DNA of 64,000 nucleotides from Lepisosteus oculatus (taxonomy: Eukaryota; Chordata; Actinopteri; Semionotiformes; Lepisosteidae): assembly GCF_040954835.1 (NCBI RefSeq), contig NC_090711.1, positions 2,611,501-2,675,500 of the forward strand, given 5' to 3'. This document shows positions 27,637 to 30,600 of this stretch, piece by piece (position 1 is the first letter of the stretch; every line of letters begins with the position of its first letter). The position numbers and the translations under genes were made by a program. The notes under the pieces are model-generated. The model worked only from the letters and a program-made list of their open reading frames with translations. It searched no databases and had not been told where the DNA came from.

Positions 27637-30600
27637 GTAAGTGCTGAGATCTGGGGTGGCAGAATGCACTTTGTCCAGTGTCATCGTGACCGTTTTGAGT
27701 CAGACGTGCGTCTGGGGCTAAAGTCATGGGGTGGGTTTTCTGCCCTGGGAGTCTGATTTTGGTTGATTAAATAAGGGGTACCCCAGGAATGTGGCCCGTC
27801 TCGTTTTGGTGGGCCGTCAGTTGTATGCTGCTGTTCATGCTGCTGGGTGCTGTTCTCTTGCAGATCACAGCCGAGGAGCTCAAAGATAACAGGGCCATAG
27901 AGCTGGAAGTGGAGGCTCGCGGGCTGGACAAAAAGGTAAGACAGTGGTGCCGTGCTGTGAATTTCCACAGCGTACAGAGAAAGGGGGTTGATTTGACTAA
28001 GCGGTGAGCGTAGCGGTTTTAAATATGTATCTGGAGTTGGCACAAATTTCCATCCTAATCAAATATACTCTTTCGGTTCCCCCGTTTTTTTTTCCCATGG
28101 TTGGGCAACTGTGTCAAAACAGAGGCAGGTCTGGGGTTCTCGCGTCTTGCTAGATTTCCGCTGTTCTTGTGCTGCACCGCTTTTTACTTTGAAATCCCCC
28201 CCCCTTGAAGTTGCTGTACACCCTGCCAAGTTTGAAATGCCTGTCAAACGGCCCGTCTCATGGCAGAGCCCAGCTAGAGCCTGACCCCTGACCCGCCTGT
28301 CTGTCTCTCACCAGGATCTGTTTGGGAAGTCGGATCCTTTCCTGGAGTTTTATAAACAGGGCGATGATGGAAAGTGGCAGCTTGTTCACCGGACAGAGGT
28401 ACTGTCTGTAAATGCAGTTGGACTTCTGGCTACGTAAATGTCTGTATAGAGTTAGTTCATCTAGTGTGGTTCACACTTGGAGTTTTTAACACTGAATAAA
28501 TTAATATAACTGTCAAGATGTGCAAATACCTTTTTCATCTGTAATTGTCTTCGCACCCAGTAGGGACGGACAGAAAGTAGCTTATGCTATGAAACATACT
28601 TCCTAAAAATGAAACTTGTTGTTGGTGTGTATCTTTTAAAGACAGTGTTTAGTGGCACAGTCTTTGCTCTTTGACTTCTGTGGTTTGAAATCAGGAATAT
28701 GATCTGTTTTCTATCTAATCTGCTTTTATTTTACAGGTTATCAAAAATAATCTCAATCCCTCGTGGAAGAAGTTCTCGGTCTCTCTCCAGACCTTCTGCA
28801 ACAGCGATATGAGCAAGCCGATCAAGGTGAGAATGTGCTGTGCAGCTGTGCACCAGTGTCCTCCAGCCGCCCAGCCTTCCCAACTGCTTACCTGCCAGCC
28901 TGCAGACGTATCTGCCATTTGAGCTGCGGTTCTCGTTATCCTTTGCGAAAGGAAGCCACAGTGTGTAGTAGGTTTAACTGCATGCTTGCTCCTTGAGCTG
29001 AATCACACGAAATTAAATACTTCCAGCTGCTAATTGTCTCAGTTTCCTTAAAAAGAAACGTTTGAAGCAGCGAATGCAAATGGGGCGTAAAGACTAATAC
29101 CCTTAAGCAGGAGACTGTGCTTGTCTAATAAAACTCAGGGTTTAGTTTTTGCCTTGTCTTTAGCAGTTTCGTGCCAGGTTATACAGTTTGTGTCCCCTAG
29201 TGCTAATGCCACCTCCCGGCTGTGCCTGGTACTGACCAGTGTGTCTCTTGCTGTCAGGTGACTTGTTACGATAAGGACGAAGACACCAGTTCTGATATGA
29301 TAGGGGAGTTTACTTCCACCCCCGCGCAGCTGGTGGAGGTGAAAGATCATGCGGTGAGCAGGCCCCTCGTCTCCCAGCGAAAACCCTGCTCTCCTCTTCC
29401 TTGCAGGTCCATTGCTCTGATTACGATAGCGATGGCTCTCATGACCTCATCGGTATTTTTCAAACAAATGTCTCTGAGCTGCAGAAAACTAGCCTCTCTT
29501 CACCGGTGAGATCTTTCTTTGTGTTTTACTTCATTGTGTTTTTCTTTAATGCCTGATGAGTATCATCCATGCTTGTTTGTTCCTACAAACCGCTACATAA
29601 TCCTGTAGTTAGTCTACAGTCTGACACTGTACCTTTCAATACCTGAAGTTAGGGTCTTACTGATATCGGTTGGATAGCTGTAATCTTCATGTTCTCTGTA
29701 GAAACCAGTTAAGTTTTGCAGTGTATAAGACTGTACCTTTCTCTACCTTAATTCAGGGTCTTACTGATATCGGTTAGATAGCAGTGCACAAGACACATTG
29801 GTCCATTTCTGTGGTGGTAATGGATTTTGTTCTGTTATTCTACAGTTTTGTGATCAGGGCTGTTAACAGTGGTACTTCTCAATGAGAATTTAAATGATTT
29901 TCCCCATCGTTCTTTGCATTATAAAGGTGGAGTTTGACTGCATTCACCCTGAGAAGCAGAAGAAGAAGAAAAGTTACAAAAACTCCGGGGTGGTGAAGAT
30001 CAGGTCTTGCAAGGTAGGTGTTCTGCTTGGCCATCTCTCGTGGAGATGACCTCTCTTTGATTTTAATAACCTGCTGGGGCGCAGCAGGGTTTCTGGATGT
30101 CTGGATTTACTGCCTTCGATGCATAGAAATGACAGATGAATTAACACAAGCCCTCCTAAAAACACAGTAGCTATGCTCCTTTGTCAGCATTGCTCTGATA
30201 ATGATTAACGGCTTGCTCGCTCTGGCTATGGCAGTGTGGGTTTAGATACACACTTCGCCTGTAAAATGTCACCATGCCTTCCCTCACAGTTGTGATTCCT
30301 TGCTCTGCTGTTGTGTGATCCCTTGATCTGATGTTGACAGATTGTGGCAGATTACTCATTCCTGGATTACATCATGGGAGGGTGCCAGATCAACTTCACA
30401 GTAAGTCTTTCAGTTGTAAATGTACGATTGAAATGCGCTTTCTAAATCTGTCACCCGATTTCTCCACCCTGAGTGGGCAGCCGCCTGCGCTCGAGTGAAT
30501 CTGTGCACAGTGTATGGCCCTCACTGTGTGCATTTAGTCTTGTTGCTACTAGAAAACCTTGGTTTTTTTTCCTGATGTGTATAACTTTGACTCTGTAGTG

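Follow-up and report, generated by a model that had tools for sequence, protein, structure and literature searches.

The copine-1 gene (CPNE1) of the gar Lepisosteus oculatus contains two adjacent, homologous versions of its seventh coding exon, 7a and 7b, which probably constitute a tandem-duplicated, mutually exclusive exon pair. In the mechanism we propose, this pair would have arisen once, before the living jawed vertebrates diverged; a 53-nt intron would bring the branch point so close to the 7a donor that the two could not be engaged together; and splicing would yield either 6-7a-8 or 6-7b-8, the frame alone permitting double use. Either exon would build the same part of the C2B domain, retaining three aspartates expected to bind Ca2+, and the switch would tune the Ca2+ threshold or the lipid preference of membrane recruitment, with Ca2+ binding retained.

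Exons 7a and 7b of gar CPNE1

Splice-site reconstruction gives a gene of 15 coding exons when one of 7a and 7b is used, with GT-AG introns, a single open frame and a product of 535 residues with 7b or 534 with 7a (Table 1). The 7b-form protein matches L. oculatus copine-1 isoform X3 at every residue but K497N; this record (P0028) is of the 7b type and is the L. oculatus entry used for comparison, the database entries being representatives of 90%-identity clusters. The Pfam C2 and Copine domains matched on P0028, the near-identity to a named copine-1 and an RBM12-like neighbour all identify the gene as the CPNE1 orthologue. The neighbour, upstream of CPNE1, is a stop-to-stop frame of 978 residues with four RRM stretches, which we take to be RBM12-like. 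CPNE1 and RBM12 share a promoter in human, mouse and zebrafish (PMC2568002), and by analogy may do so in gar as well.

Table 1. Positions of the features discussed, numbered within the window (the whole 64,000-nt stretch of DNA analysed)
Feature	Position	Strand	Basis or remark
CPNE1 coding span, ATG to stop	26521..33750	+	splice-site gene model; 7b form compared with P0028; Pfam
Coding exon 6, partner 5' of 7a or 7b	28737..28826	+	donor AAG/gtgaga
Exon 7a, 96 nt, 32 aa; alternative C2B segment with strand, calcium loop 3, second strand and helix	29258..29353	+	splice sites, orthologous peptides, secondary structure of 7a protein
Exon 7a loop-3 codons, D216-K-D218-E-D-T-S-S-D224	29270..29296	+	codon reading
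Intron between 7a and 7b, 53 nt, GT-AG	29354..29406	+	C-rich, strong pyrimidine tract
Candidate branch adenines, gcgAAAAcc	29380..29383	+	predicted from AG-exclusion zone
Exon 7b, 99 nt, 33 aa; common version of the same C2B segment	29407..29505	+	identical in P0028
Exon 7b loop-3 codons, D216-Y-D218-S-D-G-S-H-D224	29419..29445	+	codon reading
Coding exon 8, partner 3' of 7a or 7b	29927..30013	+	gene model
Stop-to-stop frame with RRM stretches	14692-17628	+	upstream of CPNE1
Aminotransferase class-V fragment	1620-1988	+	
Direct repeats	29619-29785		intron directly 3' of exon 7b
Inverted repeat	32374-32533		CPNE1 intron
Minisatellite arrays	42582-42914, 51177-51319, 55191-55400		3' of CPNE1
Gene pieces	~44000-61500	+	
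Frame with significant Pfam C2 match	49711-50223		within the gene pieces

A second reading of the sequence reproduced the coordinates, exon lengths, peptides and GT...AG intron of the preliminary description, together with its phase 0 at both ends of each exon. The two gar exons are 45% identical over their first 22 residues and 45% over their first 66 nucleotides, and no third copy of exon 7 was found by tblastn in the window (next best E of 0.29 for 7b and 1.0 for 7a). In the gar gene model the reading frame is kept with 7a, 7b, both or neither, and frame is therefore unable to enforce a choice between them.

Distribution, age and loss of exon 7a

To judge from the protein records, exon 7a is a real coding sequence. 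A protein search with a 44-residue query from the 7a region returned 26 matches (best E 2e-17), 23 of them 77-89% identical over 89-100% of the query and the remaining three 51, 57 and 70% identical; all but one of the 26 have the 7a pattern. They come from herring, sardine, zebrafish, carp, loaches, salmonids, eels, bonytongue and others, and many are named copine-1 isoform X2 or X3. From a wider search, in which the best 120 of 331 matches were inspected, 70 further proteins were fetched, and 22 of these carry 7a, including those of two sharks (P0147, P0150), the coelacanth Latimeria (P0144), a caecilian, two lizards, a turtle and two snakes. Six of the 22 are frog entries, among them Xenopus laevis L and S, and 7a isoforms are on record in both zebrafish and Xenopus (P0008, P0157, P0166). 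The preliminary description had pointed to CPNE1 and paralogue loci of other fishes, amphibians and mammals as places to look for a second exon, and 7a is indeed found in teleosts, frogs and a caecilian. Altogether, the 205 fetched proteins comprise 48 with 7a and 159 with the 7b or CPNE3 type, eight of them having both, and six with neither.

A chance exon is rejected by the 7a orthologues found. We also consider it very improbable that 7a lacks a role at the protein level, whether as a decaying relic or as a splicing decoy. In favour of this view, none of 42 entries from spiny-rayed fishes has 7a, the Polymixia version (P0173) has diverged, and conservation is lower for 7a than for 7b: mean identity over 22 residues is 70% for 7a without Polymixia (67% with it) versus 82% for 7b, in unlike samples of species, and relative to gar 7a is the less conserved exon in three of the four species having both. 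However, 7a is open and in frame; all 31 tabulated peptides, which span sharks to lizards, have the length of 32 residues and the three ligand aspartates, and the loop sequence DKDEDTSSD is unaltered in most teleosts, the coelacanth and gar.

Phylogenetic analysis of 71 exon-7 peptides places all 31 rows of 7a in one clade (support 100/100, and present in 100% of 200 bootstrap trees), so that independent duplications giving rise to 7a are unsupported. The tree omits Polymixia, whose 7a-like exon is one residue shorter, Crotalus, in which 7a is cut short, and several near-duplicate rows. The 7a clade adjoins the CPNE3 rows on a long stem (1.36), a position to be read with the weak support nearby, the 33 columns of the alignment and the meeting of two long branches elsewhere in the tree; the duplication may have preceded or followed the parting of CPNE1 and CPNE3. 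Both CPNE3 and a nemertean copine (P0137) have residues of the 7b kind, which suggests that 7b is the older state. Since sharks, coelacanth, tetrapods and ray-finned fishes share 7a, the pair predates the living jawed vertebrates, which diverged more than 400 million years ago.

Exon 7a appears not to have been kept in every lineage. None of 42 entries among the 205 fetched proteins that were chosen by species name, and which we take from general taxonomy to be spiny-rayed fishes, contains 7a, and the 7a of Polymixia is both diverged and shorter; together these observations suggest that 7a was likely lost in spiny-rayed fishes. No bird or mammal 7a was found among the best 120 of 331 matches of the wider search, and four marsupial copine-1 entries (P0125, P0127, P0130, P0131) are of the 7b type. 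The known human copine isoforms resemble the CPNE1 pair in being alternative products of copine genes, but they consist mainly of deletions and alternative N-termini, with a 75-residue C2A insertion in copine 7, and the passages on them in the survey mention no C2B swap (PMC10968396). To that extent the survey fits the absence of 7a in human.

Choice between the two exons

The products of the two exons appear to be isoforms of one gene. The 7a and 7b proteins of Brienomyrus (P0141 and P0030) and of Paramisgurnus (P0017 and P0056) have no differences outside exon 7, and for these two fishes the possibility of two paralogous genes is rejected. Two of six same-species pairs thus differ in exon 7 alone and four differ elsewhere too; in three of the others the differences elsewhere lie mainly in one block, and Sinocyclocheilus also differs at scattered sites. 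Adjacent, homologous exons of equal phase and isoforms differing at the swapped exon alone are two of the marks of tandem exclusive exons, and both are found here. The proposal that 7a and 7b are alternatives for a single C2B exon of CPNE1 is upheld; both are conserved over deep time and are on record elsewhere as alternative isoforms of one gene.

The intron between the two exons (22 C, 11 G, 12 T and 8 A) is far shorter than the 14 other CPNE1 introns, which range from 155 to 949 nt. Its candidate branch adenines, predicted from the stretch that follows the last upstream AG and precedes the pyrimidine tract, lie at intron positions 27-30, 23-26 nt before the intron end. A threshold of about 50 nt has been given for the joint use of a donor and a branch point (PMC7969005), and potential steric interference has been counted for 57 human clusters, or 9% (PMC5740500). 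Some human introns of 37-65 nt are nevertheless spliced; 12 of 15 validated ones are G-rich (PMC4463651), and a 56-nt HNRNPH1 intron with a truncated pyrimidine tract is spliced via SPF45 (PMC8363638). The gar intron, being C-rich with a long tract, fits neither the G-rich nor the truncated-tract description. It is plausible that this intron makes joint use of 7a and 7b impossible, and the exclusion is probably steric. The pyrimidine tract is stronger at the 7b acceptor (90%) than at the 7a acceptor (60%), and for this reason 7b is likely the default and 7a the regulated choice.

Exclusion based on RNA structure has no support, as no folding signal was detected (z -0.10). Rfam returned no matches at gathering scores, and a motif scan around the exons, run without a chance control, yielded short common motifs only, including one TGCATG at 28979, to which we attach no weight.

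Strict exclusion has to be weighed against proteins in which both exons are present. Tandem use of 7a and 7b, or retention of the short intron, might occur at a useful level, making the C2B domain longer or the message truncated and prone to decay, and double use would be in frame in gar. Eight of the 205 fetched proteins carry both exons, in every case with 7a before 7b as in gar. A complete 7a is fused directly to 7b in five of them (P0022, P0023, P0032, P0138 and P0139), 7a is trimmed to 27 residues ahead of 7b in P0146, and 5 and 22 extra residues separate the two in P0025 and P0005. None of the eight bears an isoform name, and they look like automated gene models; conversely, the entries inspected that are named as isoforms and carry 7a hold only one exon of the pair. 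The length of the gar intron and the distance of 27-30 nt between its donor and the candidate branch adenines likewise speak against joint use, and a duplicated loop 3 with its following strand would not be expected to fit the C2 fold. On balance, we regard non-exclusive use of 7a as unlikely and retain mutually exclusive splicing as the preferred reading.

A cyprinid-like contig of 2,578 nt (P0026, source code 'lgn') bears on intron retention. Exons 1-6 are joined in it without introns, for which reason it is taken as assembled RNA, and they lead into 7a, after which an inferred 83-nt intron is read through and 7b, 8 and 9 follow in another frame. In a two-offset reading, which compares degenerate codons and has no shuffle control of its own, 7b is compatible at 28 of 28 residues and, after an offset of one codon, 42 of 45 continue into exons 8-9; a single-offset match of the tail to 7b-8-9 reaches 63%, versus a shuffle maximum of 62%. 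Should the reading be correct, an RNA was spliced at the 7a acceptor but kept the short intron, and such retention might add to the switch a third outcome, a regulatory one. The frame shift caused by the retained intron would leave P0026 with a truncated protein of 360 residues. Read-through peptides imply a 7a/7b intron of 66 nt in the Hucho gene model P0005 in addition to the 83 nt of P0026, and the longer of these raises the possibility that the steric rule may not be equally valid in all fishes.

Loop residues, related systems and neighbouring features

Exon 7 spans residues 212-243/244 of the protein. The preliminary description held that the acidic residues of C2 loop 3 are kept in both exons and their neighbours differ, and this is borne out by the larger set of peptides: D216, D218 and D224, which from other C2 domains we presume to be the Ca2+ ligands, are fixed in 31 of 31 peptides of 7a (Polymixia omitted) and 26 of 26 CPNE1 peptides of 7b, with positions 217, 219, 221, 223 and 228 being diagnostic. 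Position 217 is K in 20 of 31 peptides of 7a and Y in 24 of 26 of 7b; 219 is E or D in all 31 versus S or N in all 26; 221 is T or S in all 31 versus G in all 26; and 223 is S in 28 of 31 versus H in all 26. Beyond the loop, glutamate occupies 228 in 30 of 31 peptides of 7a, where 23 of 26 of 7b have V, I or S, and position 238 is E or D in 30 of 31 versus K in 23 of 26. The net charge of the loop is -4 in 27 of 31 peptides of 7a and in all 26 of 7b. Predicted models of a 7a protein from Sardina (P0003, pLDDT 85.8) and of the 7b protein of gar (P0028, pLDDT 82.9) share the same elements, namely a strand at 209-217, the loop, a strand at 223-232 and a helix from 233. Among solved structures, chains of the plant copine BON1 make up the ten best matches to the 7a model.

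The 7b loop presents tyrosine, glycine and histidine, and 7a usually offers lysine, always an extra acidic residue, serine or threonine for glycine, and a glutamate after the loop. In synaptotagmin-type C2 domains the residues between the aspartates contact lipid and tune Ca2+ affinity. From these residue roles an altered Ca2+ threshold or lipid preference is expected rather than lost Ca2+ binding, and we consider it reasonably probable that this is what the exon switch tunes. The main rival to the Ca2+/lipid reading, which concerns the functional step only, is that the switch alters a protein partner or subcellular target, with position 228 and the following helix outweighing the loop. The contrasting residues at 228 and 238 would suit such a role, and copine C2 domains also bind proteins (PMC10968396), but the most consistent differences (219, 221 and 223) lie in the loop or at its edge, and we view an altered partner as possible though not probable. 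The second C2 domain is considered responsible for the Ca2+-dependent membrane recruitment of copines, and what splicing does in this family has been called unclear (PMC10968396).

Mutually exclusive exons with comparable features are known in other systems. Among the closest are OGDH exons 4a/4b (PMC7969005), a vertebrate exclusive pair that likewise has a short intervening intron and lies in the gene of a Ca2+-responsive protein; it yields Ca2+-insensitive and Ca2+-sensitive isoforms, and in human its branch points and the 5' splice site are 25-41 nt apart. OGDH differs in protein and domain, its branch points are mapped whereas those of CPNE1 are predicted, and its combined exons shift the frame whereas combined 7a and 7b do not. 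In invertebrate Syt1, Syt34 and Esyt2 (PMC2823689), exclusive exons also alter a segment of a C2 domain, which in Syt1 is the central portion of C2B; however, these are synaptotagmin-type genes with several origins, and CPNE1 is a vertebrate copine gene whose 7a sequences form a single clade. Alternative splicing at the CPNE1-RBM12 locus itself has been described, including in zebrafish, but that paper concerns 5' UTR exons, and its main text lacks the terms 'mutually' and 'exon 7' (PMC2568002).

The mostly non-subscription literature on copine splicing and on exclusive C2-domain exons yielded no description of the CPNE1 7a/7b pair, nor does any copine term appear in the main text of two papers on human exclusive exons (PMC5740500, PMC9741552). 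The suggestion that such a pair is undescribed in copines thus holds for the literature searched, although the isoforms already stand in the sequence databases under predicted names; what is new is the recognition of the pair, its age, the retention of its ligands and its patchy loss. Retention of the last intron of human CPNE1 is reported to be regulated in senescence (PMC7744961), and a CPNE1 RI event is reported in multiple sclerosis brain (PMC12428622), both apparently unconnected with exon 7; the copine passages of reports on a Cpne6 RI event (PMC10839115) and on Cpne3 expression (PMC3552424) concern matters other than the CPNE1 7a/7b pair.

With fixed aspartates, variable surrounding residues and both versions persisting from sharks to lizards, 7a and 7b form a natural loop-swap experiment. 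We are evenly divided on the fuller scenario, in which the switch has been kept since before the split of sharks and bony vertebrates, supplies two different Ca2+ or lipid thresholds from one gene, and disappeared from spiny-rayed fishes and probably from the mammal line, hence being missed in catalogues of human exclusive exons. Such a history would show that a human-centred catalogue is able to miss an ancient vertebrate splice switch.

Several further features were observed in the window. The direct repeats following exon 7b are 63 nt each, 84% identical and 104 nt apart. In the CPNE1 intron preceding coding exon 14 of the 7b form (32902), the near-perfect inverted repeat has 71-nt arms that are 93% complementary and 18 nt apart, and is possibly a foldback mobile element. 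The minisatellite arrays have units of 28/55, 39 and 24 bp. The gene pieces on the 3' side, in which one of six scanned frames has a significant Pfam C2 match, are presumably ferlin-like, and the aminotransferase class-V fragment is one that we take to be NFS1-like.
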